Part shown: positions 6,029 to 64,000 of the stretch, piece by piece
How the letters are laid out: every line of letters begins with the position of its first letter
How positions within the stretch are numbered: position 1 is the stretch's first letter
From: Deltaproteobacteria bacterium
GTDB taxonomy: Bacteria > Desulfobacterota > Desulfobacteria > Desulfobacterales > Desulfosarcinaceae
Direction: 5' to 3'
Assembly: GCA_021824175.1 (NCBI GenBank)
Contig: JAKALP010000032.1
Coordinates: forward strand, 1-64,000
Length of the DNA stretch: 64,000 nt
Program-made: the position numbers and the translations under genes
The notes under the pieces: generated by a model
Database searches by the model: none
What the model saw: only the letters and a program-made list of their open reading frames with translations
Told to the model about the DNA's origin: nothing

Positions 6029-7024
6029 CCGGATCATCGAGGGCACTCATTTCTTTTCTGAGTTCCTTTTCTAGTTGTTTAGCATCCGGAAGTTTGTCTT
6101 TTAACTCTGGCGGCAATTCCCGTGTTAACCGATATTCCGAGACCCCAACGGGTTTTTCATTACACCGAAGTGCATACTCGACTTCGAAATAGTCGCGCTC
6201 TGAACAGAGAATAATGCCAATGGAGGGTTTTCGTCTACTTCTCGGACAAAATCATCCAAGAGATTGAGATAGAAATTCATTTTACCCACATATTCCGGCT
6301 TGAATCGACCAGCTTTAAGCTCAAAAGCCACCAAGGCATGAAGGCGTCGATTATAAAACAAAAGATCAATGAAATACTCTTTGTTGTTGGCTACAATCCG
6401 ATATTGATTCCCGATAAAGGCGAAACCATAACCCAATTCTAGCATCACCGCCTTGATTTTTTCCACTATTCGGACTTCAAGCTGGACCTCCAGGATCGGT
6501 TCTGCCACGCCCAGCATATCGAGCATATACACGTCCTTCATGGCGTGATCGGCCTGTTCCGCCAAATGCACTGGAAGCGCTTTTTGGAAATTGTGTTGTT
6601 TGTCCGACAAATAGTGCCGTTCATAAGCTTTGGATTCAATTTGATGGAATAGAACGTTGCGGCTCCACCCCATATCTATGGTGGTTTGAAGATAATACCG
6701 CCTTGCTTTCTGGTCTTTCACCTTCGAAAGGATAACGAGGTTCTGTCCCCATGGAATTTCTCCAACAAGTTGTTGGAGATTCTCATCGTCCCTATATTCG
6801 AGGTAAAATTGTCTCATATACCAAAGATTTTGCACGGAAAACCCCGAGCGGCCAGAAAATGTATTGCGCAAATCTTGGGAAAGCTGCTCAACGACCGATT
6901 TACCCCACCCCAGTTGTTCCTGCTTTTCCGCGATTTCTTTTCCGATCCACCAATAGAGTTGGATCAGCTCTTTATTGGCGGCCTGGGCAACACGAATGCG
7001 ACTATTCCGGACGAGATCTTTCAC
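6015..7024 (-). pseudogene. YhcG/DUF1016-family PD-(D/E)XK nuclease, frameshifted near the C-terminus
   Basis: From a GTG at 7024 the protein shows the DUF1016 N-terminal domain (NKELIQLYWWIGKEI, LSQDLRNTF, FSVQNLWYMRQFYLEY, PWGQNLVILSKV) and the C-terminal nuclease domain (GNQYRI, YFIDLLFYNRRLHALVAFELKAGRFKPEYVGKMNFYLNLLDD). The frame then leaves the family consensus: after DENPP it ends at 6125 with an unrelated tail. One base away, at about 6219-6228 by the CCC/GGG run, the next frame continues perfectly as IGIILCSERDYFEVEYALR through KPVGVSEYRL to a TAA at 6015. This is a one-base loss or a sequencing error. The catalytic core is intact, so a truncated protein could still act. YhcG proteins occur in defence islands and on mobile elements; neighbours here suggest a transposon passenger. 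Confidence 0.88.
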
Positions 7025-12422: not shown

Positions 12423-13649
12423 ATGAAGGCCCAATCCAACTTGCCAAGCTTTGAGCCCGCCTTGCCAACAATGCGCCTTGGCGAAATCAAGGATCTCGCC
12501 CAGCAGGTCATTATCGCCTCCTCCACCCTGGAAGGAAGGATTGCTCCCGAAACCGCCAAGGCCCTGAGTGATCGGTTGCGGTTTTTGAACAGCTACCATT
12601 CCAACCTGATTGAAGGGCACAAGACCTCGATTTTGGACATCGAGGCTGCCATGCAAAAGGACTACTCAAAAGACCAGGACAGACGCTATGCGCAAGAGCT
12701 ATGCGCCGCCCATGTGCGAACCGAAAAGATGTTGATGGAAGAAATTCTGGCGACGCCCCCCAGCAACATCTGCGCTTTGGAGTTTATCGCCCGGATTCAT
12801 AGGGTGTTTTACGAACAGCTGCCCAAACGGCACCAATTCACTCACAGCCAGGGCGGGTTTACCAAATATTCGGTACTGCCGGGACAGCTGCGCGACGGCC
12901 ATATTTCCTTGGACGGCGGGCGCACGGCCCATGGACCGGAGGCCCGCCTATTGCCCGCAAAGTTCGATGAGTTCAGCAAAGTTTTCAATCCGGCCCATTT
13001 TCATGGCGATGAACGATTGATCGCCGTGGCCGCCAGTCACCACCGGCTTTTATGGCTCCATCCCTTTCGCGATGGCAACGGCAGGGTAGTGCGCCTTTTT
13101 TCCGGACTCTGCATGGCCCATATCGGAATCAACCGGGGCAACCTCTGGTCGCTGTCACGGGGCTTTTCCAGGGACAAGCAGTGGTATATGACCAACCTGC
13201 AATCGGCGGATTCGCCAACAAATGCAACCAAGGGGTTCGATCAAGCCTTTTATGCGGACTACTGCCTTTACTTCCTGGAAGTCTGCCTGGATCAAATCCA
13301 ATTCATGGACCAGATCCTGGGGCTCAACCGGATCGACGCCAGGATCGAAGGCTACATAAGAGACCGGGATAAAAAGCGCGGCGCCTTGGAACCCCTTGAC
13401 CCGCGCGCGGCCAAACTGCTCAAGGCATTATTTTTAATGGGCCAGGTCAAAAGGGGTGAGGCCAGATCCATAATGGGCATGGATGATCAGAGCGATCGCC
13501 ACGCGCGGCGCATCGTAAGCCAGCTGATCGCCGAAGGCCTGGTTTGCTCCGAATCCCATCGCGCCCCGCTGACCATCGGATTTCCCACAAAGGTGTTGCG
13601 CTATTACTTCCCGGATATCTTTGAGCCGTCAATCTTCGGAGAAGATTGA
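12423..13649 (+). CDS. Fic-domain protein (probable AMP transferase), class II
   Basis: The 408-residue protein carries the Fic signature HPFRDGNGRVVR (about residues 213-224), with the catalytic histidine, the metal-binding Asp, and the GNGR phosphate loop all intact. Near the N-terminus SNLIEG (60-65) matches the inhibitory helix motif (S/T)xxxE(G/N), whose glutamate blocks ATP binding, so this is a self-inhibited class II Fic protein. The C-terminal 100 residues (KLLKALFLMGQVKRGEARSIMGMDDQSDRHARRIVSQLIAEGLV) look like a winged helix-turn-helix. Fic enzymes transfer AMP to target Tyr, Ser or Thr hydroxyls. The gene has its own promoter and no antitoxin beside it, in line with intramolecular inhibition. 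Target unknown. Confidence 0.92.
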   Translation: MKAQSNLPSFEPALPTMRLGEIKDLAQQVIIASSTLEGRIAPETAKALSDRLRFLNSYHSNLIEGHKTSILDIEAAMQKDYSKDQDRRYAQELCAAHVRTEKMLMEEILATPPSNICALEFIARIHRVFYEQLPKRHQFTHSQGGFTKYSVLPGQLRDGHISLDGGRTAHGPEARLLPAKFDEFSKVFNPAHFHGDERLIAVAASHHRLLWLHPFRDGNGRVVRLFSGLCMAHIGINRGNLWSLSRGFSRDKQWYMTNLQSADSPTNATKGFDQAFYADYCLYFLEVCLDQIQFMDQILGLNRIDARIEGYIRDRDKKRGALEPLDPRAAKLLKALFLMGQVKRGEARSIMGMDDQSDRHARRIVSQLIAEGLVCSESHRAPLTIGFPTKVLRYYFPDIFEPSIFGED

Positions 13650-48816: not shown

Positions 48817-51800
48817 TTGCGCTTGTTGCCCACCACCCCGGCCCAGCAACTCTTCAGCGGTTCCGATGGCGCGGTGGTGTTCCTGGAAGTGGTCAGTGAA
48901 ATGTCCATCCGGATCCGTTCGGTCAGCGTGGACGGTGCCCAGATACCCCTCTACCTGTTGCGGAATGCCCATCCGCACAGCGATCCGGTCTATGCCGAGG
49001 TCGTAGATGGATATGATAACTTCAGCTTTTCACCTCAATCGGGCGATTGCGCACCATCGGATTCTTATTGCGCCAATTACTTCAGACGCTTCAACCTGAT
49101 CCGCATTACCTTCCAAGGAGCGGTGCCGGAGAACGTCCAGGGCCAGGTGGCTGTTGAGGTAGCCACCGTGGATTCCGACAACAACAATGAAGTAATAGAA
49201 GTTAAGAATTTGATGACGACCCTGCCGGTATCCCCAGATCCCCAGCCCACGGTTCAGATCGATGCCGGCCTGCCCAGTGTGATCAACCGATCAGTGGGGC
49301 AAGCCCTGGAAGTCCCGGTCACTGTCACCGATGCGGCCTTTAACCGTATCGAGGTTCAATATCTGCTCGACGGTGAACCCCTGGCTCAGCAGATCCAACC
49401 GCCATATCCCATGTTGGATCCGGGCATCGAACAGCAGTCCCAGGCAAAATACGTCGCCAAAGCTGCCGAGGGCTATGGCGAGGGCGGTTATGCGGAATGG
49501 TCCCGCTTTGTCATATCCGTGGGCACGGCCGGAAATTACCATTTAAGACTGGGCGGCTCCAATGCCCATGCACTGATCTTCCCCATGGACGCCTACGGGC
49601 GGATCATCTGGAACCCGGTGCAGGAGTTAGACCTATATGCGGATTCGGATCAGACCTTTGAGCTGGCCGCGGGCTGGTATGTGCTTTCCCTGGCGGTGAG
49701 CTTCGACGGCTACTTCGACTACTCTGCAAGCGCTCATCAGCAGTATTCCGAACCCTATGGCACTTCGGATGCGGGGATTGAAGGCCGAACTTACACTTTG
49801 AATTTTGAAAGCGATTTGGGTGATCCCGGCCGCGCCGCGCCGTTACTCACTGCGGCCTTTATACGGTTTGAGCCGCGTTTGAAGGTCGATCGTTCCATGG
49901 GATATCAGGCCCTGGGGAACGCCTATGTAATCAAAGAGAGTGATGTGGGCAGCCATGCTCTCTCCATTCGCGCGATTGAACATACTGCGACGGGCGAGCG
50001 CCAATATACGGTAGGCGCCTATACTTTGAATGTGTCGGCAGCCTCCTGTGTGCCAGGCACCCTGGAGCTGGTATATCCCGGCATAGGCCAGCCTCTCTAC
50101 ATTTCCGAACTCGGTCGAACCATGGGCGGCGACTCTTCCAACCAAAGGGACATCACATTGAAAGCCGATGCCCCTGGTGGTGTTGCTTCGATTGAATGGC
50201 TCAATGCGCCATCCATTGGTAACATATGCCCCATTTACTACTCGAATTACTATAGCTGCATATCGCAGGGTTCAGTGATTGCGAGCAACTCTCCGGTGCC
50301 AGCGCGCCTCGAGACCGCCGATCAAATCCATTTTGCCCTGACCAATACCGCGGCCTATCTGGCAATGCTCAAGACTGGCATGAATGAGCTGCGCTTTAGG
50401 ATTACCACCAACTGCGGACAGGTGAGCGAACAGGTGTTCATGGTGGATATCCAGGAGGATCCTGGAGCCGAAATCGAACTGACTTCCGGTCAGCCGGACC
50501 TGACACTCGCGCTTGGCGAAAGCCGCACACTCCCTGTCACGGTGACCGATGCCGGCCGCAACGTGATGGCTGTGGGCGCCTTAATGACGCCCTTGGGCTG
50601 GACCATGCCGAACCAAGGGGAAGGTGAGGGCTCGGGAGCAAATCAGGGTACGCTAAATACTTATTCAGACTATTTATACCCCCTCGTCACGGGAGATAAT
50701 ATTAATTTGGGCCTTAGAGTCTTAGCGGACAGCATGTCGACCAGTGGCAGTTCCGGTGGAAATGGTGGCGGCGGCGGTGGAATGCCTGTCTCTGTGCCGC
50801 CCGAATTGATCGACCCAAATGCCATACGCACCATGGTGGCAATGCTCTCACCGTCTTCGGCCTGGGCCTTTGCCATCGGCTCCGGTACCACTGATGGCAT
50901 AAATGTCTCTCAGTGGCGCCTGTGGCAGGCGGATAGCGATAGTTTCGTTTACCAACTGCCTGTCACATTGCCCATGAGCGTATATAATTTTGGCGATTAT
51001 GAATTGCACCTGGTGACGGTCGAAACCAACGGCAGGGTTACCATCGGCGCTCCGATTCCGATGCATCTGCGGGGCAATGTTTTGCCGCCTGCTATCACGC
51101 TTGAAAACCCGATGGCCCTGCCGGCGGCGGGCAACAATTTTTCGGTCAAGTTCCAGGCCTGGAAAAACGGTGGGGCCATCAGCCGGGTGACCTTAACCGC
51201 CACCGGTGCGGTGGCTGCAGGGAGTACGCAAGCCGAAATACAGGGCAATGGCCAATCCTCCATGGATAGCTATTTCGAGTTGACTGTCGCACAGGGCGCC
51301 CAGCCCGGTGATGTGATCGATATCACCGTGACCGCCTTCGATGATCGCGGCAATTCGGATGAAGCAACCATGCAAGTGAGTGTAGGCACCCTTGAGCAGT
51401 GGACCGTGGAAGTGACGGGCGACACTTATGCCAGCAATGATATGTTCTTCCGGCCGGTCGTGGTGCGAAGTGGCGGTATTTTGCGTTGCCAATGGGAAGC
51501 CCCAATGCTCGATTCCCTGGTGGTGGAAGCCGGGGGTCAGGTGATCGTGAATAGTTACAATGTTCCGGAGCTGAGAGTAAACACCGCCCTGCGCCTTGAC
51601 ACTGGCGGCGTGCTGAGCATTGAGCCCAGCTATTTGGACAGCAAATCTAACCCTGGTGGTGGTGCTCATGGCGGTGATGCCAGTAATCCTCTTTCCTTGA
51701 GAGCGTTCGGAGATTTTCGCCATCCAAACACTATTGGAGGCAGTGCCTACGGATATCCGCACTATTATTGTTCTTGGTATAGTTGTTATACAATTTATGA

Positions 51801-54800
51801 CCACATCAACGGTGGCGGTGCCATGCGCATCGAGGCCCCGCAGCTGATCGTCAACGGCACCATTCAAGCCAATGGCCAAAGCCTGACGGCAGCCCAATCC
51901 CGCTATAGTGGCGGTTATGGCGGCGGTGGCGCCGGAGGTTCCCTCGCAATCGATGCCGGCGATCTTTCCGGAACTGGAACCATCCAGGCCAATGGCGGCG
52001 ATGTATTCAACGCTGAACAAGGCTCGGGTGCCGGCGGCCGCATCGCCGTGTACTATAACACTTACAATGGAGGGGCCCAGGATGCCTCATCCGGCCTGCA
52101 TTTGGAGGCCTTGGCCGGCCAGGCGTCCACTGATGCGACGCACAGCGGGGCAGGGACGGTATTCCTCAAACGGCCCGATCAACTCTATGGCGATCTTCTG
52201 CTGGATGCCGGCGGCCGGTTCAGTGATACCTCCCAGACCACCTTGCGATCCGTGGGGCGTTGGACCATTGGGGCCATTGCCCCCGTGGCCGGCACGTCCG
52301 ATCGATACCGTGTTGATCTTCTTGGCACGCCCAACTTTGAAATACCCGATGTCAATGACAGCAAAACCTTCCCAGGTCTGCGCGGACTCCAAGTGCGCTT
52401 GAACGCTAACGATCCCCTTGCGCCGCTTTATCCGGTGGTAGATAACGGCGCCAACTACCTGATCGTGCAAGCCGGCCAGAACATCTCTTCAAACGTCGGC
52501 AACGACCTCATCGGGGTGATCCGCCTGGATAAACTTCAGATTTCAGAAGGAGTCCACCTGGCGGTCAAAGACACCATTCATGCAGATGAAAACCTCATCG
52601 AAGATCCGGACAGCTTGGCACTGGTGGATGATATTTACAGCCCCAACCAATATCATGTGGGTGCGCTCAACCTCAGCGATTCAAACCAGGTCTATCTCGG
52701 CGACCTCTATGCCGATAGCCTGAATTTGAGCAACAGCAAGGTGCGCGTTACCGGCCAGACAGTAATCACCGGCAATGTCTCTCTAAGCGCCGGCGCAACT
52801 TTGGCTGCTACCACGGTCGCCATCAATGGACAGCTGATACTCAACAATGCCAGCTTGAGCGTGGATCAGTTGAGCGGCATCACCGCTCTTTCCTTGACCA
52901 ACAGCAATTTGCATGTCGCTTCGGCCCAGATAACCGTTCCCTCCTCGGTTTCCATGACCAATAGCATTTTTTCCCTGGCCCAGGGGCGCTTGGCCATCAA
53001 TGGCGATCTCGAACTCATTGGCGGCTCCCTAAGCGTGCCGGACCTGGCCGTCAGCGGCCAATGGACCATCCAAGGCGCCCAGGTCCAGGTAGCACAGTTG
53101 GCATTGGGGGCCAATCTCGTGATGGCCGGCGGCAGCTTGACCATTGCCAATGGTCCGCTTCAGATCCCCGGCAACGTCCAACTGAGCGATGTTGGTGTTT
53201 TCAACGCGCCGGATCTATCCATTGGTGGCCAATTGACCATGACCGGCGGCGCGCAGCTTACCACGGGCAGCATCGATGTGGCCCAGGCCGGAGTGGTCAA
53301 CAATGCTGCCATTACTACCGTCCATTTTGGGGTCCAGCAGGATTTGAGCCTGGAAAACAATGCAATCCTCACGGTACAGACTACTACGGGAATGGCTTCT
53401 CAGGCGCTTGAGTTGAGTGTGGGCCAAGCGCTGCGGGTTCAAACCGGCGCGGTTATTGATGCCAATGGTAAGGGCTATCTGGCCCAACACACCTGGAACA
53501 ACGCGCCATACACCAACACCTATACCGGTGGCAGCCATGGTGGGATCGGCGGGCTACATCCAGATACGAATTGGGACCATTACATTGCGCTGCCGTCTTA
53601 TGGGGATTTCTATCATCCTGCTTATCCGGGCAGCGGCGGCAACAACTCTGTTGGCGGCGGGGTCATCCATATTGATGCGGCCGCTCTTTTTCTCGATGGC
53701 GGCATCATCCGTGCGAACGGAACCCCCTACCAATATGGCAGCGATTCGGGCGCGGGCGGCAGTATTGATCTGCATACGGGCTTGATTGAAGCCGTAGGCA
53801 GCGCCAACCGCATCGAAGCCAATGGCGGTGGTGATTGGAGCCAATCCATCGACCATACCGGCGCCGGCGGCAGAGTAAGAATCCGTTATGCTCAGAACAA
53901 TGGCCTGAATTGGCAATATGTCACAGCGCGGGCCGGAGCATCTTCTTCCTCCTACGCCAACTTCGGCAGCGCTGGTACTGTGTTGATCCACCAACTCAAC
54001 CAGTACCCGGTACTTAAAGTGGTCAGTTACGATCCCCAGGCCGGCCGCAGCATTACTTCCACCATGACCACGAATCTGGAAGTCTTCGGGCAACAAGTTA
54101 TTGCGGCCGTTGAAGTCTTGCCGAATCAGCGCTGGGGCATCGATGTGCAGGACTCCCTGGATGCGGACAAGAATTATGTCGGCTACCTCATCGATCTGGA
54201 TGCGGACGATTTTGAGGGCCCCTATTACGAAGTCGTGGCGGTTGAAGGCAGCCATCGCCTGATCGTTCAAACCAGCGACGATTTAAGCGCCGTTGTAGGC
54301 AACACGTTGGCTGGCGCCCACCGGTTCGAAAGAGTGGAAGTGACCGGTTCGCGGGTCGATTTCGGCCAGGATCGGGTCATTGTGGATGATTTGGCCGATA
54401 TCCAGGCATCGACGGACAGCCAGATACGTATCAATATGCCTTCGAATCTGATCACTCAGATGGTGGACACCAACCCCGTGGGCGCCTGGACTATCCTTGG
54501 CGATCATTCTCTCTCAACGTTGACCCTGGATGGCTATGACCTCAATGTGGCCAGATTGCACATTACCGGTGATTTGAATGTCGGCAATACTGCCGCCCTG
54601 TCCGCAGAGCTTGTTGATGTAAACAACATCATGATGCAAAACGGCATCATCAGTGCTCATCAAATGGATGTGGCCGGAGATCTCTCCGTGCTTGCCGGCT
54701 CCTCTCTCACGGCGGCAACGATCAATGCCGGCGATATCATGATGCAAAGCAGTACGGCTACTGTTCAGCAGATCCATGTCACTGGCAATTTGTCCATGGC

Positions 54801-55953
54801 CGGTTCGGTCATTACTTCGCCGGCTTGCACTGCCACCCAATGCTTCCCATTGACCATCGATGTGACCGAGTTGTTCTCGGTTCATTCCGGGTCAGCCATC
54901 GATGTGAGCGGCAAGGGGTATGTGGCCCAACAAACAGTCAATAATACCAATTATAGCTCAAGCAATGCAGCTGGAAGCCATGCAGGCCAAGGAGGCTCAT
55001 CGTCCGGGCAGCTTGTGGCCTATGGTGATTACCAGCATCCGTCTTTCCCGGGTGCTGGCAGTTCCTATAAATGTTATTCTTGTTACCCCAATATAGCGGG
55101 TTATGCGGGAGGTGGTGTAGTAACGATTATTGCTGAGCGTATAGAAATAAACCAAGGCTCGATACTGGCAAATGGGCAATACAATGCGCAAGATCAATAT
55201 TTCCCCACCGGTGCAGGCGGCAGCATTAATATCCAAACCAATACCATTGCACAAAGCGGCAGCGGCAACCGCATCGAGGCTAATGGTGGCGGCAGTTGGA
55301 CCAATACGGCTTCCGTAGGTTACACAGGCGGTGGTGGACGCATCCGCGTTCAATATAATATCGCCACAGGGTTCTCTTTAGCCTCTTCAGTGGCCTGTGG
55401 CGGACCTTCCCCCTATTCCAGCAGTTACGTAAATTATATGGGCAGTGCCGGAACCGTCTTTCTCCAGGCCGGCAATGTTGCACATTTAAAGATCTCCAAT
55501 ACCGACTCCATCAACAGCAGTAACCTGCGATCCTCCGCAAGGACCCCTATGGAGGTCATTGGTCACCACCCCATTACCGCCGTGACCCTGCAGCAAGGTT
55601 ATAGCGATCGCTGGGTGATCACTACCAGTGACACTCTGGCAGCCGACAAAAACTACATAGGCTATCTGGTGGACCTGAATGCTTCTGAATTTTTGAGCCC
55701 GCACTATCCCATCGTGGGCCAGGTCAACGCTAATCAGTTGGTTGTACAAACTAACGATAACCTGGCGGCCGCCAATCTGGTGGGCAACTACTTTATCGGC
55801 GTGCACAACTTGGAGACGTTGACCGTGCAGAGCTGGACCACCGCCGATTTCGGGTGGGATCGCGTGATCGTGAACAATACCGCCGGATCGATCTACGATA
55901 CCACCAGCAACATCATTTCCGGCGATGGCAGCGTGCTGCCGACAAAACAATAG
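48817..55953 (+). CDS. C-terminal continuation of the giant protein after the TAG (2,378 codons)
   Basis: This frame is contiguous and in phase with the preceding giant gene, separated only by TAG 48814-48816. It opens with a TTG, has no Shine-Dalgarno and no signal peptide, so it is unlikely to be an independent gene; either the TAG is read through or this part is lost. Content: Ig-like domains (49.2-51.4 kb); three glycine-rich units with GGGGAGGS and GAGGRI motifs (51.64-52.06, 53.46-53.90, 54.90-55.36 kb), each followed by a GSAGTV segment and a DADKNYVGYLIDL-like domain; and stretches of short strand repeats (LSNSKVRVTGQTVITGN type; 52.66-53.3, 54.5-54.8 kb) suggesting a beta helix. The C-terminus (DGSVLPTKQ) has no recognised anchor or autotransporter barrel. 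Confidence 0.85.
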   Translation: MRLLPTTPAQQLFSGSDGAVVFLEVVSEMSIRIRSVSVDGAQIPLYLLRNAHPHSDPVYAEVVDGYDNFSFSPQSGDCAPSDSYCANYFRRFNLIRITFQGAVPENVQGQVAVEVATVDSDNNNEVIEVKNLMTTLPVSPDPQPTVQIDAGLPSVINRSVGQALEVPVTVTDAAFNRIEVQYLLDGEPLAQQIQPPYPMLDPGIEQQSQAKYVAKAAEGYGEGGYAEWSRFVISVGTAGNYHLRLGGSNAHALIFPMDAYGRIIWNPVQELDLYADSDQTFELAAGWYVLSLAVSFDGYFDYSASAHQQYSEPYGTSDAGIEGRTYTLNFESDLGDPGRAAPLLTAAFIRFEPRLKVDRSMGYQALGNAYVIKESDVGSHALSIRAIEHTATGERQYTVGAYTLNVSAASCVPGTLELVYPGIGQPLYISELGRTMGGDSSNQRDITLKADAPGGVASIEWLNAPSIGNICPIYYSNYYSCISQGSVIASNSPVPARLETADQIHFALTNTAAYLAMLKTGMNELRFRITTNCGQVSEQVFMVDIQEDPGAEIELTSGQPDLTLALGESRTLPVTVTDAGRNVMAVGALMTPLGWTMPNQGEGEGSGANQGTLNTYSDYLYPLVTGDNINLGLRVLADSMSTSGSSGGNGGGGGGMPVSVPPELIDPNAIRTMVAMLSPSSAWAFAIGSGTTDGINVSQWRLWQADSDSFVYQLPVTLPMSVYNFGDYELHLVTVETNGRVTIGAPIPMHLRGNVLPPAITLENPMALPAAGNNFSVKFQAWKNGGAISRVTLTATGAVAAGSTQAEIQGNGQSSMDSYFELTVAQGAQPGDVIDITVTAFDDRGNSDEATMQVSVGTLEQWTVEVTGDTYASNDMFFRPVVVRSGGILRCQWEAPMLDSLVVEAGGQVIVNSYNVPELRVNTALRLDTGGVLSIEPSYLDSKSNPGGGAHGGDASNPLSLRAFGDFRHPNTIGGSAYGYPHYYCSWYSCYTIYDHINGGGAMRIEAPQLIVNGTIQANGQSLTAAQSRYSGGYGGGGAGGSLAIDAGDLSGTGTIQANGGDVFNAEQGSGAGGRIAVYYNTYNGGAQDASSGLHLEALAGQASTDATHSGAGTVFLKRPDQLYGDLLLDAGGRFSDTSQTTLRSVGRWTIGAIAPVAGTSDRYRVDLLGTPNFEIPDVNDSKTFPGLRGLQVRLNANDPLAPLYPVVDNGANYLIVQAGQNISSNVGNDLIGVIRLDKLQISEGVHLAVKDTIHADENLIEDPDSLALVDDIYSPNQYHVGALNLSDSNQVYLGDLYADSLNLSNSKVRVTGQTVITGNVSLSAGATLAATTVAINGQLILNNASLSVDQLSGITALSLTNSNLHVASAQITVPSSVSMTNSIFSLAQGRLAINGDLELIGGSLSVPDLAVSGQWTIQGAQVQVAQLALGANLVMAGGSLTIANGPLQIPGNVQLSDVGVFNAPDLSIGGQLTMTGGAQLTTGSIDVAQAGVVNNAAITTVHFGVQQDLSLENNAILTVQTTTGMASQALELSVGQALRVQTGAVIDANGKGYLAQHTWNNAPYTNTYTGGSHGGIGGLHPDTNWDHYIALPSYGDFYHPAYPGSGGNNSVGGGVIHIDAAALFLDGGIIRANGTPYQYGSDSGAGGSIDLHTGLIEAVGSANRIEANGGGDWSQSIDHTGAGGRVRIRYAQNNGLNWQYVTARAGASSSSYANFGSAGTVLIHQLNQYPVLKVVSYDPQAGRSITSTMTTNLEVFGQQVIAAVEVLPNQRWGIDVQDSLDADKNYVGYLIDLDADDFEGPYYEVVAVEGSHRLIVQTSDDLSAVVGNTLAGAHRFERVEVTGSRVDFGQDRVIVDDLADIQASTDSQIRINMPSNLITQMVDTNPVGAWTILGDHSLSTLTLDGYDLNVARLHITGDLNVGNTAALSAELVDVNNIMMQNGIISAHQMDVAGDLSVLAGSSLTAATINAGDIMMQSSTATVQQIHVTGNLSMAGSVITSPACTATQCFPLTIDVTELFSVHSGSAIDVSGKGYVAQQTVNNTNYSSSNAAGSHAGQGGSSSGQLVAYGDYQHPSFPGAGSSYKCYSCYPNIAGYAGGGVVTIIAERIEINQGSILANGQYNAQDQYFPTGAGGSINIQTNTIAQSGSGNRIEANGGGSWTNTASVGYTGGGGRIRVQYNIATGFSLASSVACGGPSPYSSSYVNYMGSAGTVFLQAGNVAHLKISNTDSINSSNLRSSARTPMEVIGHHPITAVTLQQGYSDRWVITTSDTLAADKNYIGYLVDLNASEFLSPHYPIVGQVNANQLVVQTNDNLAAANLVGNYFIGVHNLETLTVQSWTTADFGWDRVIVNNTAGSIYDTTSNIISGDGSVLPTKQ
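51640..55360 (+). repeat. Three glycine-rich repeat units in the C-terminal part
   Basis: Each unit has the order: ANGKGYLAQ-like text (weak in the first), a GG-rich loop, YGD(F/Y)xHP, GGG(V/A) plus a hydrophobic strand with (L/I)xANG, GAGGSI, IEANGG, GAGGR(I/V). Unit starts are about 51.64, 53.46 and 54.90 kb. Cysteine pairs are inserted in the first and third (CSWYSC, CYSC). Confidence 0.75.
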
Positions 55954-56211: not shown

Positions 56212-57018
56212 ATGCGTTACATCATGATTTTATTATTGGTTTTAGGTATTTCGGGTTGCGGCAAAAAAGATGAGAAAATTGCATCGGTGGGCGGCAAGGC
56301 CGTCAGCCAGTCCGAATTCGACGCCTATTTGAAATTCAAGCGTTTAAACGCCAAGGACGACAAGCAGCGGGGCGCCTTGCTCGACCAATATCTCGATCGG
56401 GCCGCCTTGGCCGCGGCCATTGAAAAGAGCGATGTGCTGGATCAGGCGTCAATAAAGACCGAATTGGAAGAATTTCGCAAGGAGATGCTGATCAGTCGCT
56501 ATTTCGAAAAGTATTTGCAGGATAAGGTCAGCGACGAGGCCGTGCAGAATTACTACAACACCCACACATCCGATTGGGAAGAAACCCAGGTGCATGTGGC
56601 CCATATCCTGATCCGCACCAACCCCAAGATGAGTGAGCTCGAACGCAAGGCGAAGCTTACCACCGCCCAGGAGATCTACTCCAAAATCCGCGGTGGCAAA
56701 GATTTCGGCAAGATGGCCGAGCAGTTCAGCGAAGACAAGGTGTCGGCCAAAAGCGGCGGGGACCTGGGGTGGGTCAAGCAGGGCGGTATCGACCCCAATT
56801 TTTCCAAGATCGCCTTTGAAACCAAGGAGGGCGAACTCTCCGAACCGTTCGAAACCCCCTTTGGCTACCATGTGATCAAGGTCATTGAAGCGCCGCGCAC
56901 CATTAAACGCTCCTTTGAAACCGCGGCCGGCGAAATCCGGTATCGTTTGAAGAATGAAGCCAAGAAAGCCGAGCTGGATCGTCTCAAAGGAAACGTCAAG
57001 GTCGAAAAGAAGAAGTAA
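56212..57018 (+). CDS. PpiC-type peptidyl-prolyl isomerase lipoprotein
   Basis: A 268-residue protein with AAGGAG 9 bases before its ATG. The N-terminus is a lipoprotein signal (MRYIMILLLVLGISGC; Cys16 would be lipidated), so it acts in the periplasm anchored to a membrane. Residues about 25-115 form the SurA_N-like helical chaperone part. Residues about 127-227 are a complete parvulin domain: HVAHILIRT, FGKMAEQFSED, SGGDLGWVKQG, FETPFGYHVIKV. Such proteins catalyse proline isomerisation and hold unfolded exported proteins. It lies 258 bases after a very large secreted-protein gene and before another, so a dedicated client relationship is likely but inferred. Confidence 0.92.
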   Translation: MRYIMILLLVLGISGCGKKDEKIASVGGKAVSQSEFDAYLKFKRLNAKDDKQRGALLDQYLDRAALAAAIEKSDVLDQASIKTELEEFRKEMLISRYFEKYLQDKVSDEAVQNYYNTHTSDWEETQVHVAHILIRTNPKMSELERKAKLTTAQEIYSKIRGGKDFGKMAEQFSEDKVSAKSGGDLGWVKQGGIDPNFSKIAFETKEGELSEPFETPFGYHVIKVIEAPRTIKRSFETAAGEIRYRLKNEAKKAELDRLKGNVKVEKKK

Positions 57019-57036
57019 TAAAAAGGAATCGATGCG

Positions 57037-57972
57037 ATGTGTATTGCAACCCAACAAGCAGTTTGCCGACCGGAGTTCGATTTCCGAGCGGCCCGCCGGC
57101 CAGAGGGCAGGGCAGGGGAGCTCACTCGAACTTTGAAGGGCCTCATGGTTCTTCTTTTCGTGTTCTCGGTACTTGCCTGCGGCAATCGGGGCACCAAAGG
57201 ATCAGCCGGCGAAGATAAAGTGCTGGCCCGCATCAACGGCAGCGCCATTACCCAGCTTGATCTGAATTTGTCCATCGAGAGCACCCTGGGTTCCCAGGGC
57301 GGCGCGATGCTGGATGATAAGGGCCGGCATAGTCTTTTGGAAAGCCTGGTGGCGGCCCGGGCCATCGCCCAGGTCCAGGAAAAGGCATTGAGCCCCGAGC
57401 AGAATAAAGCCTTGGAGAAGAAAGTGGCCGCCTATCGGGAGCAGTTGCTGGTCAAAATGTATCTGGCCAAGAACACCCAAAGCGAACCGGTGACCCAGCA
57501 AATGGTGCAGGAGTATTATGACGGCCATTTGGAGCAATTCGGCGGCGCCACGGTCCGGGCCTTTGAAATGATCACCACCCAGGGCGCCATGACCGATGCG
57601 GTCCGCGATCAGTTGCTCAGCGCCATGACCGATGCTTCCAAGATCAGCGATTGGCCCGCCGCGGTTGAGCGCTTGAAGAAAAAGGGGGTTCCGGCCGTCT
57701 ACAGCAAAGCCTCGTCCGATGTAAAGATTTTGGAACCCAAGCTGCGTGAAATCATTGCCAAGTTATCCGCCGGGCAAACGTCGGACCCGACCTTCATCAG
57801 CGGACAGTTCTACATTGTCCGAGTCACCGGCGATACAAGGATCGCCGCGCGGCCGTTGAATGAAGTAAGTTCCGAAATCCGTAAAATACTTCTGCCCGTG
57901 CAGTTGAAAAAAGCAACCAAACAGGCCTCCGATCAGGTGTTGGGAAAAGCAAAGGTGGAATACACTAAATGA
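57037..57972 (+). CDS. SurA/EpsD-like foldase lipoprotein with degenerate PPIase domain
   Basis: The frame from ATG 57037 gives 311 residues, but a lipoprotein signal (MVLLFVFSVLACGN) begins only at ATG 57145, 36 codons in. The first 36 codons are arginine-rich and contain a 16-bp sequence found elsewhere in the window, so the true start may be 57145 or TTG 57133. After the lipidated Cys the protein has VLARINGSAITQLDLNLSIE and long helices, as in SurA N-domains, then a PpiC-like C-terminal part (EIIAKLSAGQTSDPTFISGQFYIVRVTGD) lacking the usual HILI and GGDLGW motifs. It resembles EpsD-type exopolysaccharide-locus foldases. It sits 18 bases after the first foldase and overlaps the next giant gene by ATGA, so the three are one operon. 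Confidence 0.8.
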   Translation: MCIATQQAVCRPEFDFRAARRPEGRAGELTRTLKGLMVLLFVFSVLACGNRGTKGSAGEDKVLARINGSAITQLDLNLSIESTLGSQGGAMLDDKGRHSLLESLVAARAIAQVQEKALSPEQNKALEKKVAAYREQLLVKMYLAKNTQSEPVTQQMVQEYYDGHLEQFGGATVRAFEMITTQGAMTDAVRDQLLSAMTDASKISDWPAAVERLKKKGVPAVYSKASSDVKILEPKLREIIAKLSAGQTSDPTFISGQFYIVRVTGDTRIAARPLNEVSSEIRKILLPVQLKKATKQASDQVLGKAKVEYTK

Positions 57973-60900
57973 ACACGACCGCATCAGGAACCGGACATCT
58001 TCCCACTGTTGGAATTCAATCGCCTGTGACGCTGACCCGCAGATCCCACGGTTTGATCTACAGGATTTGCAACTGCCTTGCCGGCGCCCTGACCTGCGGC
58101 CTCCTGTCGCTGCTGATTGCTTCCGCAGCGCTGGCCGCCAATCTCACCATCCAAGTCAAGGATCAGGATAACGCCCCTTACGCCGGTATTAAGGTTTACG
58201 CTTACACCCAAGCGGGTTCCTACACCGGTCGCACGGCCACCACCGATACCGGGGGAATCGCGGCATTCGGCGATGTCAGCCAGTTCAGCGCCGGCAATTA
58301 CAAATTCAAAGCAGTATTGCTGGGCCATGATTTCTACCTGGAAAATGTGGCCTTGCCCGCCACCACCCAAGCCAGCATCGTGATTCCCAAGGCCAATGTC
58401 ACCATCAGCGTGAGATCCGCCGGGCTTGCGGCCGCCGGCGTCAAAGTCTATCTCTACACGGGTGCCGGTTCCTATCTTTCCGTCAATGCCACCGCCGACA
58501 GCCAGGGCCAGGTCGTCTTCGCGCTGCCCGTGGGCGGCGTCTTTGATTTCCGCGCCGATGTTCTGGGCACCCAATATTGGAAAGATAATTACACCGTGCT
58601 CAGCGGCGCCAATGCCGTGACCCTGGATGCCGGCGGCGGGCGTCTGAGCGTCACGCTGCAAAAAGCCGCCGGTCAACCCATGGGCATGGTCCCTCTTTAT
58701 CTTTTCAATAACAGCGGCACCTACCTTGGCAAACAGGTGAACACCGATCTTTCCGGCAACGGCGTGTTCGATGTCCCCAGCGGCACCTACCGCATTCGGG
58801 CCGACTACCTGGGCTATCAGATTTTTAGCGCCAGCACTCCGGTCAGCGCCAATACATCGCTGACCTTTGAAATCCCCCATAAAGACATCACCATCACCGT
58901 CAACGGGCAGGAAGGAAGTCCCGCGCCCATTGTTGGCGCCAAAATCTATCTCTTCACCAAAGCGGGCGCCTATGTCGCCCAAAGCCAGACCGCGGATGCC
59001 GCCGGCCAGGTGCGCTTCAATCTGCCGGATCAGGAGTATCGGGTGCGGGCCGATTACATGACGCTTCAAATCATGTCCGATCCCTTCCGGTTTCAGGATT
59101 TTACCTTCTCCATTCCCATGGCCGAAGCCGAAGTCAGCGTCGTCCGGGGCAACCTGCCGCTTGCCAACGTACCGGTTTATCTCTTTTCAGCCAGCAACGC
59201 TTTCACCGGCACCACCATTACTACCGACGCCAGCGGCAAAGCCCTTTTCCGGATGCCGGCCTCCACCACGCCCATTGCCACAACACCGGCCGTTTCATGG
59301 CGATTCCGGGCCGATTACCAGACCAATCAATACTTCACCGATTATCTTCCTCTGCCGGCGGGAGTGCGCACGCCCGTTGAGCTTTCCACCGGCGGCGGCA
59401 CCCTCTCGTTTAACGTATTTCTCTCAAAGAACGGCACCGAACCCTTGCCGGGCGTCAACTGCTATGTGTTCAACGCCATCACCGGAGCCTATACCGGGCT
59501 GAACAGCGCCACCAACAGCGAGGGCAAAGTCGTTTTCGATCTGCCCGCCGGCCGATATCAAATCCGGGTGGATTATCTGGGCTATCAGTTCCTCAGCGGC
59601 ACCTACGAAATCACCACGGCCGCCACCGAAGTATTCGCCATACCCCATCAGCCGGTGCAGATCACGGTCAACGGCCTCTTTGACACCCCAGAGCCGATAC
59701 AGGGCGTCTCCGTCTACCTGTTCAATGCCAGCGAGCAGTATTTGTCCCAGACCGTTGTCACCGACGCCCAGGGGCATGTCCAATTCAATCTGCCTGAAAA
59801 AGAGTATAAGGTGCGCGTCGATTACCTGGGGCAGCAGATCATGTCCGGGGCGTTTGTCGGCCAGGGACCCAATACCGTCGTAAACATTCCCATGGCCGAA
59901 GCCCAGGTGCGCGTTACGGGCGCCGGCCACGGTCTGCCCAATGCCACGGTTTATGTTTACAGCGCCTCCCAGAGCTATCTCAATGTCAGCGGCACCACCG
60001 ATGCCGACGGCCGCGTCGATTTCCGGCTTCCGGCCGGCACCTATACCTTCCGTACCAAGTACCTGGGCCACACTTACGAAAGCACCAATAACGCCCTGGC
60101 GGCCCAGGCCGCCCAACCCATAGAAATCGCCACCGGCGGCGGCGCGTTTACCTTTACTCTTCTCCAAGGCGCAGATCAGCCCCTGGCCAACACCAAGTGC
60201 TACCTCTTCAACAGTGCCCAAGATCAATATCTGAACATGTGGGCCATTACCAACGAGCAAGGCCAGCTGAGCTTGGAACTCTCCGACGGCACCTTCACCA
60301 TCCGCGCCGACCATCTGGGGTATCAATTCTTTTCCAGTGCGTTCCAAGTGCCCCAGACCATGAGCCACACTTTCACTATCCCCCATCAAGCCATACCAGT
60401 GGCCATCAACGGCGTGCTGGACGACACGCCAATGCCTCTGCCGGAAGTAAAGACTTACCTCTTCAGCGCCGCTGAATCCTACCTGGGGCTCAGCCAGATC
60501 ACCGACAGCCACGGCATCGTCACTTACAATTTGCCCGATAAGGAATATAAAGTGCGCGCCGACTACCTGGGCTATCAGTTCATGTCCTTGGCGTTTAAAA
60601 GCGCGCCGGCGACCCTATCCATCCCCATGGTCCACGCCCAGGTCAATGTCCTGGGCATCGGCCAGCCCCTGCCGGGCGTCAAAGTGTATGTGTTCACCCC
60701 GTCGGGCAGTTATATCGGCATGAACGGCGTCACCGACGCCCAAGGCGCGGTTTCCTTTGATCTGCCGGCCAAAAGCTACAAATTCCGGGCCGATTACCAG
60801 GGCAGCCAGTTCATGAGCGATGCCTTGGCCCTGACCGTCGGGCAACCCAACACCGTGACCATCGACACCGGCGGCGGCGTCTTCGGGCTGCGGGTGGAGA

Positions 60901-63900
60901 AAGATCCCGCCAACCCCCTGGCCGGCCTGCCTTGCTATGTCTACTCGGGCGCTAACAGCTACCTGGGGCTCTTCGGCACCACCGACGCCCAGGGTCGCGT
61001 CACCTTCAATCTGGCCAACGGGCAGTATCGCTTTAAGGTCAAGTATGCGGGCTATGATTTCATGATCGAGGGCGTCAATGTGCCCCAGACGCTCTCCCAA
61101 ACCTTGACCATCGGCCATCAGCGCCGCCACATCTTTGTCCAGGGCATCAATCCGGGACCCGCGCCCCTGGTCGGCCAGACGGTCTACGTCTTCAAAGGCG
61201 ATGGGACCTATATCAACCAGTCGGCCGTCACCGATGCGGAAGGCCATGTCTTCTTCGATCTTCCCGCCAACGATTATAAAGCCAAGGTGACCTACAAAGG
61301 CATCACCTACTGGACCGATATTCTGAACCCCTACGGCAACCTGCTGCGCATCAATCTCGGCACCGGATCCGTGCTGCCTCCTATCCAGAACCTGGCCGCG
61401 GCCATCAACGCCGGCAATCAAATCGTGCTCACCTGGACAGCGCCCGCCAACACCAACGGCCTGACGCTGGCCGGCTACCATGTCTACCGCCGCCAGGTAT
61501 GCCAACCCGGCTTCGAACGCATCACTACCACGCCGCTCACCGCCGCCACATTTACCGATGGCAACATCACGCCCACCGGCACCTACGCCTATTACGTGAC
61601 CGCGGTGACCGACTCCGGCGTTGAGGGTTACGCCAGCAACGTGGCCGCCGTAGAGTTCGGCGGCAGCCTCAACGATGACAACACCACCGGCATCACCAAT
61701 CTGAGCGCCTCCTGGAACCAGGGCGTGGCCACCTTGAACTGGACGGCCGTGCAAGGCTGCGCCTATCAAATTTACCGCGGCCCGGCCCCCGGCAGCCTGG
61801 TCCCCTTGCAACGCAGCACCAGCGCGGTTTTTACAGACACTGGCGCCAATCGGGATCAACCCTGGTATTACCAGGTGGCCACCGTCAAAACCCTGTGCGA
61901 TCCGGCCAGCGGCCAGCCAATCGATAAAATCGGCCCGTTCTCGGCCCTCGTGACCCTGGCCCCTCTGCAATCTCCCGGCACGGTCACCACCAACCTGAGC
62001 ATCAACGGCAACGGCGATTACATCATCGCCACCGGCGCCGGCCAAGGCTACATCTTGGAAGGCGGCTACAGCGGCTATAACGGCCAGGTGATCGTCACCG
62101 CCACCCTCGGCGGCCAGACCGTGACCGGCACGGCCAGCGACGGCCACTTCAGCATCACCCTGCCCACGCCCGGCAATTGGCAGATCGTCATCAGCGAGCC
62201 CGACGGCTGGCCCAGCACCACCCTGGAGACCGCCTGGCAGATCGACGACCAGCCCCCGACGCTCACCGTGGACGGCGCCGCGACCCGCACCACCAGCGAC
62301 AGCATGATCACCATCACCGGATTGGCCGAGGACCGGCAGTCGGCCCTGCTGGGAGTCCGTATCACCTCGGACCGTTACCCCGGCACCACCTTCGGCACCA
62401 CCCTGGCCAGCCTGGGCAACTTCAGCGGCCAAGTACCCCTGAAGACCGGCGACAATCACCTGACCGTCACCGCCCTGGATGTCCATAACAACGGCGCCTC
62501 CCAGTCCATCACCGTCACCCAGACTCTGACCACGCTGCCGGTCGTCCAGATTATCAGCCCGGCCGACGGCAGCACCGTGACCACCGCGCGCGTCAGCGTC
62601 ACAGGCACCGTGCGCTCGACCCTGGCGCCCGATAAAATCCGGCTGGTGCTCGGCAATCAGATTGATTTTCCCAGCGGCGCCAATGGAGACTATGCTTTTT
62701 CTTTCGATGGCGTCACCCTGGCCGAAGGGGCCAACATCATCACGGTGCGGGCTGAAACCGCCTATGGCAATGTCAGCGCCCAAGCCACCGTGCAGTACGC
62801 CACCACGGCCGCCAACGAAACAGCCACCAAACCCCAGATCGAAGTCTACGCTCCGCTGCCCGACAGCTACCTGAGCGCCAATCCCATGGTCACCGGTCTG
62901 GCGCGCAGCGAACTGGGCATCAAATCGGTCACCGTCAACGGCCAGTCCGCCCAAACCACTGGTCTGGGCACGGCTTATACCTCATTCCAGGCCGGTTTGA
63001 CCTTTGGCGGCAGTGAATCCCAGGCCACCATCACCATCACGGCCACGGACCTGGCCAACCACAGCAATACTCTGAGTTACAAGGTCTATCAGGACGGCAC
63101 GCCGCCGGTCATCACGCTCAACAGCCCCGTGCAGCTGCCGCCGACGGTCAACAGCACCACCCAAAGCCCCTATGCCATCAGCGGCCGGATCACCGATCTT
63201 CATCTGGCCGGCGCCACCATCAACGACCAGCCCATCTCGCTGGCACCCGCGGGCCAGGCCGGAACCTACACCTTCAGCGCCGTATTGCCGCTGACCTACG
63301 GCAACGACCAGCGCATCGTGCTGGCGGCGCGTGACTTTGCCGGCAACCGCACCAGCACCGAGTGGATCGTGCGCCTGGACAACAATCTGACCATCGAAGT
63401 GATCGCCCCCCGCGACGGCGCCCAGCTCCAAGGCCAGGGCAGTTCCATCTCCGTGACGGTCACCGCGCGGATTTCCGGCGCCCAGGCCGGGGATGTCTTC
63501 AAAGTGGCCCTGGATGGCGGCGCGCCCCAAACCATGAGCCGTTCCGGCGCCGTGGGCAACTACACGTTAAGCTTGGCCGCGGCCCAGGCCGATCACAGCC
63601 TGAACATCAGCGTGGAAAATAGCTCCGGCACCGTATTGTCCTCCACCAGCACCAGCTTCAGCGTCTCGAACATGAACAGCGTGCCCCTGGCCGTGGAGAG
63701 CCAAAAACCGGACAACGGCGCCACGGGCGTCGAACCCAACGATTTTATCGCCTTGTACTTCAACAAGGCCATCGACCCGGCCTTGTTGCAGATTCAAGTG
63801 CAGGAGACCGCCCACGGCCAAACCTATGCTTCCCAGGCCGGCGGCGCCGATATCACCCAGTTGAGCAAAGTAAATCTCATCGAAGTCAGCCGCGACCTCG

Positions 63901-64000
63901 TACCCGTGCCCGGCGGCGTCTCCCATTTCCCGGCCAACCGCATGGCCGCCTTCTACCCCAGCCGCGACATCGCCTACGGCGCCGCCGTCTATGTGACCGC
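57969..64000 (+). CDS. Second giant secreted repeat protein (runs off window)
   Basis: The start ATG overlaps the previous stop (ATGA). The frame stays open for 2,010 codons to the window edge. Residues 1-56 form a long Sec signal ending in IASAALA. Thirteen related domains of about 82 residues follow (58.14-61.35 kb), each with VYLF...SYL, TD..G.V.F.LP and YRVRADYLGYQ motifs, like small carboxypeptidase-regulatory/PEGA-type beta sandwiches. Then come two fibronectin type III-like domains (61.38-61.95 kb, GYHVYRR and YQIYRG) and several Ig-like domains with PPxITL and DNxGA motifs, and at the edge a Big_5-like domain (SQKPDNGATGVEPNDFIALYFNKAID). A matrix or adhesin role is inferred from architecture and neighbours. 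Confidence 0.88.
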   Translation, partial: MNTTASGTGHLPTVGIQSPVTLTRRSHGLIYRICNCLAGALTCGLLSLLIASAALAANLTIQVKDQDNAPYAGIKVYAYTQAGSYTGRTATTDTGGIAAFGDVSQFSAGNYKFKAVLLGHDFYLENVALPATTQASIVIPKANVTISVRSAGLAAAGVKVYLYTGAGSYLSVNATADSQGQVVFALPVGGVFDFRADVLGTQYWKDNYTVLSGANAVTLDAGGGRLSVTLQKAAGQPMGMVPLYLFNNSGTYLGKQVNTDLSGNGVFDVPSGTYRIRADYLGYQIFSASTPVSANTSLTFEIPHKDITITVNGQEGSPAPIVGAKIYLFTKAGAYVAQSQTADAAGQVRFNLPDQEYRVRADYMTLQIMSDPFRFQDFTFSIPMAEAEVSVVRGNLPLANVPVYLFSASNAFTGTTITTDASGKALFRMPASTTPIATTPAVSWRFRADYQTNQYFTDYLPLPAGVRTPVELSTGGGTLSFNVFLSKNGTEPLPGVNCYVFNAITGAYTGLNSATNSEGKVVFDLPAGRYQIRVDYLGYQFLSGTYEITTAATEVFAIPHQPVQITVNGLFDTPEPIQGVSVYLFNASEQYLSQTVVTDAQGHVQFNLPEKEYKVRVDYLGQQIMSGAFVGQGPNTVVNIPMAEAQVRVTGAGHGLPNATVYVYSASQSYLNVSGTTDADGRVDFRLPAGTYTFRTKYLGHTYESTNNALAAQAAQPIEIATGGGAFTFTLLQGADQPLANTKCYLFNSAQDQYLNMWAITNEQGQLSLELSDGTFTIRADHLGYQFFSSAFQVPQTMSHTFTIPHQAIPVAINGVLDDTPMPLPEVKTYLFSAAESYLGLSQITDSHGIVTYNLPDKEYKVRADYLGYQFMSLAFKSAPATLSIPMVHAQVNVLGIGQPLPGVKVYVFTPSGSYIGMNGVTDAQGAVSFDLPAKSYKFRADYQGSQFMSDALALTVGQPNTVTIDTGGGVFGLRVEKDPANPLAGLPCYVYSGANSYLGLFGTTDAQGRVTFNLANGQYRFKVKYAGYDFMIEGVNVPQTLSQTLTIGHQRRHIFVQGINPGPAPLVGQTVYVFKGDGTYINQSAVTDAEGHVFFDLPANDYKAKVTYKGITYWTDILNPYGNLLRINLGTGSVLPPIQNLAAAINAGNQIVLTWTAPANTNGLTLAGYHVYRRQVCQPGFERITTTPLTAATFTDGNITPTGTYAYYVTAVTDSGVEGYASNVAAVEFGGSLNDDNTTGITNLSASWNQGVATLNWTAVQGCAYQIYRGPAPGSLVPLQRSTSAVFTDTGANRDQPWYYQVATVKTLCDPASGQPIDKIGPFSALVTLAPLQSPGTVTTNLSINGNGDYIIATGAGQGYILEGGYSGYNGQVIVTATLGGQTVTGTASDGHFSITLPTPGNWQIVISEPDGWPSTTLETAWQIDDQPPTLTVDGAATRTTSDSMITITGLAEDRQSALLGVRITSDRYPGTTFGTTLASLGNFSGQVPLKTGDNHLTVTALDVHNNGASQSITVTQTLTTLPVVQIISPADGSTVTTARVSVTGTVRSTLAPDKIRLVLGNQIDFPSGANGDYAFSFDGVTLAEGANIITVRAETAYGNVSAQATVQYATTAANETATKPQIEVYAPLPDSYLSANPMVTGLARSELGIKSVTVNGQSAQTTGLGTAYTSFQAGLTFGGSESQATITITATDLANHSNTLSYKVYQDGTPPVITLNSPVQLPPTVNSTTQSPYAISGRITDLHLAGATINDQPISLAPAGQAGTYTFSAVLPLTYGNDQRIVLAARDFAGNRTSTEWIVRLDNNLTIEVIAPRDGAQLQGQGSSISVTVTARISGAQAGDVFKVALDGGAPQTMSRSGAVGNYTLSLAAAQADHSLNISVENSSGTVLSSTSTSFSVSNMNSVPLAVESQKPDNGATGVEPNDFIALYFNKAIDPALLQIQVQETAHGQTYASQAGGADITQLSKVNLIEVSRDLVPVPGGVSHFPANRMAAFYPSRDIAYGAAVYVT
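58140..61350 (+). repeat. Thirteen 82-residue domains in a three-step higher-order repeat
   Basis: Domains alternate by their linker: type A (TGGG/AGGG, at about 58630, 59390, 60131, 60870), type B (IPHK/IPHQ/IGHQ, at about 58881, 59642, 60379, 61112) and type C (IPKA/IPMA/IPMV, at about 58390, 59114, 59890, 60624). Like types are 733-776 bases apart, so the array is an A-B-C supermodule repeated about four times. Confidence 0.8.

Follow-up and report, generated by a model that had tools for sequence, protein, structure and literature searches.

The window analysed here comprises the first 64,000 nucleotides of contig JAKALP010000032.1 (assembly GCA_021824175.1) from a deltaproteobacterium of the Desulfosarcinaceae, and the second of its two giant proteins carries an array of 13 transthyretin-like domains in which three domain classes, A, B and C, follow one another in fixed order. 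Comparison with relatives shows that the order is widely conserved, that the three classes are paralogous lineages, and that some relatives carry DNA duplications in steps of 729 bp. The array is probably a rod-like stalk module, built from one fold in three ancient paralogous lineages that keep a fixed order, with its own linker at each boundary and growth in three-domain steps.

The gene is a complete open reading frame (ORF) whose last 865 bases lie beyond the window on the same contig (64968 bases). Its product begins with a hydrophobic stretch, signal-like by eye, followed by the array and then by roughly 1160 residues that include matches to fn3, Glucodextran_B, Big_7 and Big_5. Judged from the hydrophobic N-terminus and the domain types, the protein is probably secreted or surface-exposed; a search of NCBIfam gave no match above the cut-offs. 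The array, at 58140-61367, consists of 13 CarboxypepD_reg/transthyretin-like domains (D1 to D13) of 80-90 residues each, 1076 amino acids in total with a mean of 82.8:

57969..64865 (window part 57969..64000), forward strand: ORF of giant protein 2, 2299 amino acids
58140..58394, forward strand: D1, cap domain, B-like in hidden Markov model (HMM) classing and of no clear class in another analysis; end IPK
58395..58637, forward strand: D2, class A (subtype found after a B-like domain); end GG/G
58638..58883, forward strand: D3, class B; end IPH
58884..59126, forward strand: D4, class C; end IPM
59127..59396, forward strand: D5, class A; end GG/G; an insertion of about 10 residues forms a low-confidence loop
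59397..59651, forward strand: D6, class B; end IPH
59652..59900, forward strand: D7, class C; end IPM
59901..60140, forward strand: D8, class A; end GG/G
60141..60389, forward strand: D9, class B; end IPH
60390..60635, forward strand: D10, class C; end IPM
60636..60875, forward strand: D11, class A; end GG/G
60876..61121, forward strand: D12, class B; end IGH
61122..61367, forward strand: D13, terminal domain in the C position, class ambiguous; end LGTG
61368..64000, forward strand: Ig/fn3/Big-type part after the array (Pfam-type matches)

The labels of D13 disagree (weakly B by HMM, A from core columns only, C by profile in context). A clean C/A hybrid was considered for this domain; half-domain HMM scores failed to separate the classes (A 29.9, B 31.7 and C 32.0 bits for the N-terminal half, and A 14.4, B 16.9 and C 15.4 for the C-terminal one).

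A first-pass annotation of the window had described 13 domains at 58140-61350 with three linker types in fixed order and a period near 740 bases, and apart from the slightly longer extent all of this was borne out. D2-D12 read A-B-C-A-B-C-A-B-C-A-B, with GG/G after A, IPH (once IGH) after B and IPM after C, and the three A-B-C units measure approximately 730, 774 and 735 bp. In the pairwise identity matrix, named beforehand as the check on this pattern, domains three apart (lag 3) were on average 36.4% identical (10 pairs), above the 31.1% of neighbours (lag 1, 12 pairs) and the 31.3% at lag 2 (11 pairs); the means at longer lags were 28.9% (lag 4), 30.4% (lag 5) and 35.7% (lag 6, 7 pairs). 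The difference in score between same-class and other-class pairs was equalled in none of 20000 label shuffles, and the corresponding difference in identity in 28 of 20000. Every one of the 11 inner domains (D2-D12) found its best-scoring partner in its own class, exactly three domains away in 9/11, and by raw identity 9/11 did so (exceptions D6 and D12); D1 and D13 lie outside this rule. Within the window the class signal sits mostly in the linkers, where identity in D2-D12 was 31.2% within a class versus 13.2% between classes (4/20000 shuffles). In the cores it is plain only once relatives are included. Most domain pairs of the window are about 20-50% identical, with a same-class mean of 38.1% (D2-D12).

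Relatives were not detected when the collection was scanned with the window array alone, and a scan with an alignment returned 35 loci. By title these belong mainly to Deltaproteobacteria/Desulfobacterales, with further loci from a Thiotrichaceae bin, Candidatus Thiomargarita nelsonii, a Nitrospirae bin and a bin labelled archaeal; a Saprospiraceae bin gave a weak match in this named-genome scan. Among 60 genomes searched, the window's own included, 11 had a match, with arrays in 8 besides the own genome and only weak single hits in two (G042 and G054). In a sample of the phylum, 10/395 genomes (again including the own) matched at E up to 1e-10. Domains of loci L002, L024-L068 and L070-L077 were segmented and classed with HMMs started from the window's own classes and rebuilt in rounds. 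Duplicates (L051, L053, L055 and L056, of L025, L026, L030 and L027, respectively) and arrays with fewer than four domains or with gaps were left out, giving 42 arrays with 422 domains, most of these arrays being from Desulfobacterota.

The junctions between adjacent domains in these arrays follow a near-strict grammar: AB 116, BC 111, CA 112, BA 39, BB 1 and AC 1 by HMM labels, with no AA, CC or CB junction among the 42 arrays. The single BB junction is D12-D13 of the window, and the AC junction comes from the weak array of L065, situated at the end of its locus, where the junction sequence is of the GGG kind and the C label is doubtful. Most BA junctions (27/39) follow the first, cap, domain; the remaining 12 are internal. 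Three side observations belong to this collection. The A-B-C-A array of L060 stands on a short contig of the bin labelled archaeal and may reflect contamination or transfer. In L047:5268-7774 two overlapping frames share the array (B-C-A-B-C-A in the first, B-C-A in the second), pointing to a frameshift. The Trp of a QFW motif is present in 379/409 of the relatives' domains; in 11/13 domains of the window F, M, L, Y or E stands in its place.

The labels were also checked in ways independent of the linkers and of the array concerned. Labels from the five nearest neighbours, taken on core columns only and with the own array excluded, agreed with the HMM labels for 418/422 domains, and the nearest neighbour in another array was of the same class for 153/155 A, 153/154 B and 113/113 C domains. 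A FastTree phylogeny of the 422 domains, made with no use of the labels, shows 3 changes of the three-class label where at least 2 are unavoidable, and a single branch (support 99) separates class C from all other domains. When five states are distinguished (cap, A after B-like, A, B, C), the number of changes is 10, compared with 234.5 in shuffles. On core columns alone the changes number 6 (three-class) and 15 (five-state). With 84 columns behind the tree and 186 of its 419 inner branches open, finer branching is unreliable. A, B and C are thus three paralogous lineages. The super-repeat is ancient and the window's grammar was inherited, not produced by recent local amplification, since only 2/11 of the window's D3-D13 have their nearest tree neighbour within their own array. 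Elsewhere such own-array neighbours reach 7/8 in L034, L036 and L038 and 8/8 in L037.

The first-pass annotation had also proposed amplification of a three-domain unit. This is supported by the three lineages together with tandem DNA duplications at a 729-bp offset in five relatives, and in the window itself the amplification is old. The duplicated tracts comprise 1101 bp at 87% identity in L024, 1076 bp at 91% in L034, 1070 bp at 92% in L036, 1209 bp at 87% in L037 and 1068 bp at 81% in L038; the start lies within a domain in four of the five and close to the end of a domain in one. L035 has a shorter tract, again offset by 729 bp (221 bp, 86%), L072 has one at 717 bp (103 bp, 77%) and L044 has a match at a 1728-bp offset. 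Domains three apart in such fresh arrays are up to 98% identical. Tandem duplication of single domains was rejected, as blastn self-comparison of the examined arrays with at least five domains gave no match of at least 100 bp and at least 75% offset by one domain. The window array gave no self-match at these thresholds, and Tandem Repeats Finder reported nothing for it, but only periods up to 500 were covered, so that this program was blind to a 729-bp unit.

Array lengths mostly fit the same steps. Thirty of the 42 arrays lie inside their contigs and were counted by hand from their class strings: ten capped unbroken arrays have 11 or 14 domains, eight BCA-type arrays have 9, and seven phase-broken arrays have 10, 13 or 16. 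Similarity by lag, calculated for 27 arrays, has its highest mean at lag 3 in most unbroken arrays and at lag 5 in broken ones. In the phase-broken group (L044, L025, L027, L028, L030, L058 and L059) domains 2-6 resemble domains 7-11. In L044 these pairs are 81, 67, 68, 72 and 57% identical, each the best same-class partner; in the others lag 5 still has the top mean (tied with lag 8 in L027), with single domains in several of them preferring other partners. In two eight-domain broken arrays the five-domain pattern is not clear. The broken arrays are best read as the result of a five-domain duplication. Because this duplication broke the phase, three is the usual but not the sole unit of duplication. 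The helical or trimeric fibre that the first-pass annotation tentatively suggested would be conjecture, and the phase break, in which B is directly followed by A, argues against a strict register of three along the whole fibre.

Structure prediction agrees with three kinds of domain connection recurring by class. The AlphaFold model of D8-D11, for which 99 of 100 A-B-C-A segments were aligned (that of L060, from the bin labelled archaeal, was omitted), had a predicted local distance difference test score (pLDDT) of 97.5 and a predicted template modelling score (pTM) of 0.86; in this confident model the three linkers differ, with an interruption at GGG, another at PH and an uninterrupted strand at the third. 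A model of all 13 domains was made with a 14-row alignment, in which 13 rows came from relatives whose arrays are capped and unbroken but in many cases shorter than that of the window. In this model, the overall path of which is unreliable, all three C-to-A junctions are predicted as single 16-residue strands (321-336, 579-594 and 824-839), the four A-to-B junctions are interrupted for 3 residues at GGG, and the four junctions after D3, D6, D9 and D12 are interrupted for 2 residues at PH or GH. The fold is transthyretin-like, with matches to the human carboxypeptidase D transthyretin-like domain 5aq0 (Z 11.7, 2.1 Å over 79 residues) and to 3e8v (Z 12.5, 1.9 Å over 78 residues). The Pfam family CarboxypepD_reg (PF13620) matched 11 stretches with 203.3 bits against a gathering cut-off of 32.3 (E 5.5e-61).

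Taken together, the boundaries are A-GGG-B, B-IPH-C and C-IPM-A, each probably a short rigid linker; for C-IPM-A an unbroken beta strand is predicted. Rod length would change by three domains at a time through homologous recombination between domains of like class separated by one unit; units one period apart would pair, since same-class domains are alike and adjacent domains of other classes differ too much to recombine. Such steps would preserve the A-B-C order and so make the process self-sustaining, and selection on the three distinct junctions may also act. The array of the window would then be an old, diverged copy that retains the grammar while its copies are no longer homogenised. By analogy with other surface rods, the array probably serves as a stalk that fixes how far from the cell other domains stand and how they are oriented. 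On a more speculative view, which we put forward tentatively and do not expect to hold, the A-B-C order would be a geometric code in which the three fixed junctions give one screw turn per three domains and align equivalent faces along the rod. These faces could act as a molecular ruler or offer a docking track, either to a partner or to a second and third copy, with unequal recombination usually adding whole turns; a five-domain duplication would then introduce a kink or a change of face.

Several observations weigh against the stalk reading with its three-domain steps. In the cores of D2-D12 the excess of same-class over other-class identity is weak (40.6% versus 36.8%, reached in 308/20000 shuffles), and over the cores of all 13 domains the 38.2% at lag 3 is barely above the 37.7% at lag 1. 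The HMM labels were seeded from the window, and the labels from core columns alone give slightly less clean junctions (AB 114, CA 111, BC 110, BA 39, AC 2, BB 2, AA 1 and CB 1). The 12 internal BA junctions break the phase in a group of relatives in which similarity peaks at lag 5 and not at lag 3, and L065 has a match at a 480-bp offset, corresponding to two domains. Five of the 30 counted arrays fit no length series (8, 8, 11 and 5 domains and the window's 13), and 12/42 were unusable for these series, either at locus ends (L042, L043, L062, L065, L070, L073, L074 and L075), split (L047) or on short or cut loci (L060, L071 and L072). The pTM of the 13-domain model (0.36, at a pLDDT of 86.3) gives little confidence in the shape of the whole rod.

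The genomic setting provides a further line of comparison. The arrays come chiefly in two architectures. Capped ones (B-A-B-C...) are found mostly at the C-terminal end of proteins about 1600-2500 residues long; uncapped BCA arrays either follow the N-terminus directly or form the end of smaller proteins. Among arrays with at least 500 upstream bases in the capped set, a transglutaminase-like gene stands directly upstream on the same strand (gap -42 to 331 bases) in 17/20, versus 0/11 uncapped arrays; the three capped arrays that have no such gene are those of the window, L063 and L065. The loci concerned are:

L025, L027-L031, L039-L042, L044, L046, L048, L052, L058, L059, L061: transglutaminase-like gene upstream of the array

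The HMM for these genes was built from 16 of the 17, which thus match by construction; Pfam Transglut_core was confirmed in 9/9 of the upstream proteins tested. Cys, His and Asp columns, which we take to be a catalytic-type triad, are invariant in 16/16 aligned proteins. Rhodanese-like genes lie near the array in L025, L028, L030, L052 and L059. Downstream of two N-terminal BCA arrays, the only two tested, are SpvB/FG-GAP/TcdB-middle (L024) and RHS (L038) matches. The array looks like a portable module. Multihaem cytochromes as neighbours of the array were considered and rejected, CxxCH motifs occurring in just two neighbour frames, both of L049, among the loci scanned.

The window's own architecture is odd in having a capped array at the N-terminus. 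No transglutaminase-like gene was found in the approximately 10 kb upstream (L002), and a search of the window's genome with one such protein, run with no positive control, found nothing. Directly upstream lie instead:

56212-57972 of the window: two peptidyl-prolyl isomerase-like genes; the second and the beginning of the giant gene overlap by four bases

The part after the array has a relative in one other genome (G014) among the 60 searched, the own included, covering residues 578-877 of the 877 queried; G014 has no array match.

Of the other readings, structural selection is possible, if doubtful as the main cause. On this view the same face would have to recur every three domains to suit a partner, multimerisation or a screw geometry, and arrays of other order would be purged. 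The three distinct predicted junctions recurring with period three would be expected on this reading, as would the persistence of class identity while most window pairs are only about 20-50% identical, and the linkers are the most class-specific part of the window's domains. The phase break, however, persists in relatives at lengths of 10, 13 and 16, so that an unbroken period of three is not essential, and no partner or multimer is known. Structural selection and growth of a stalk module by three-domain steps are compatible, and both may act. Recent amplification of one three-domain segment in the window's own lineage would also give similarity at lag 3, and such events are seen in relatives, yet we consider it very unlikely here: same-class identity averages just 38.1%, DNA self-matches are absent from the window at the thresholds given above, and for 9/11 of D3-D13 the nearest tree neighbours are in other genomes.

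The array might instead act as a scaffold, cross-linked or trimmed as the substrate of a membrane-anchored transglutaminase-like enzyme, with the repeat spacing reactive side chains. Its association with the upstream gene (17/20 versus 0/11), the invariant columns (16/16) with Transglut_core in 9/9, and Gln (299/409) and Lys (262/409) at fixed columns of the relatives' domains speak for this idea. Neither Gln nor Lys is invariant, the window lacks the gene both in the upstream 10 kb and in the uncontrolled search of its genome, and many proteins of the transglutaminase superfamily are proteases or amidases; we regard the scaffold as improbable. That the pattern is chance or a reader's bias towards short linker motifs in an otherwise featureless repeat has next to no probability. 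The core-only excess at lag 3 in the window alone is weak enough to invite it (308/20000), and it is refuted by the shuffle tests, by the label-free tree and by 41 other arrays that follow the same grammar. The stalk module with three lineages and three-domain steps is the reading carried into the comparisons below.

Elsewhere in the window, the frame of the first giant protein (16042-48813, 10924 amino acids) meets a single TAG at 48814-48816, after which the same frame stays open for another 2378 amino acids (48817-55950) with no Pfam match; a nonsense change, an assembly error and read-through are indistinguishable. Upstream of the giant genes are a Fic-domain protein (12423-13649), a DUF1016/YhcG-type nuclease (6125-7024) and a ParA-like ATPase (748-1395).

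The 42 arrays provide a clear bacterial case of a near-strict super-repeat grammar, a feature best known from titin and nebulin. Fresh and very old arrays of the same order allow block duplication, recombination and structural selection to be tested directly, and short A-B-C fragments are small enough for expression and structure determination. No earlier report of the A-B-C pattern turned up in literature searches, which covered open-licence papers only. The domains share family and fold with CarboxypepD_reg (PF13620), and the A/B/C order lies outside that family's definition. Isopeptide bonds of the SpaA/Cna B-type need a conserved Lys, Asn and Glu or Asp. In the 409 relatives' domains no Lys-Asn pair stood out and no Asn or Glu column rose above half; of columns for Lys, Asn, Glu, Asp and Gln, those exceeding 50% were one Lys (64%), one Gln and two Asp (70% and 95%).

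In the titin A-band, as described in PMC10665226, three main linker types are spread periodically in super-repeats, for which recursive duplication has been inferred. The array resembles the D- and C-zone of the A-band in its tandem beta-sandwich domains and in that position within the super-repeat predicts similarity. Titin differs in being eukaryotic, in combining immunoglobulin (Ig) and fibronectin type III (FnIII) domains and in its longer units (an 11-domain super-repeat is named in the reference list of that paper), whereas the array is bacterial and uses one transthyretin-like fold in units of three. Nebulin expands by sevens, and PMC1553488 describes duplication of several domains as common in domain repeats, visible as similarity peaks at a fixed lag, and the fraction of repeat proteins as much higher in eukaryotes than in prokaryotes. 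The array shares with nebulin the expansion by several domains at a time, in other domain families. Like both, it has a similarity peak at a lag above one (lags 3 and 6 in the window) and position-specific lineages and linkers.

Among bacterial proteins, the E-G5 repeats of SasG/Aap and other Periscope proteins form surface rods of variable copy number with short rigid linkers or close contacts, and homologous recombination has been proposed as the source of this copy-number variation (PMC9704523). As in SasG/Aap, the repeating unit holds more than one domain. The E-G5 unit has two domain kinds, occurs in staphylococci and shows high identity between repeats, whereas the array has three classes of one fold, is found in Desulfobacterota and some other Gram-negative lineages, and has diverged repeats in most cases. 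The high repeat identity of Periscope proteins is absent from the window (mostly 20-50%), and five relatives have 81-92% DNA identity between units. By analogy, and with no claim of homology, the array may work like the titin, nebulin and SasG cases, its closest analogues being the titin super-repeats and the E-G5 rods of SasG/Aap.

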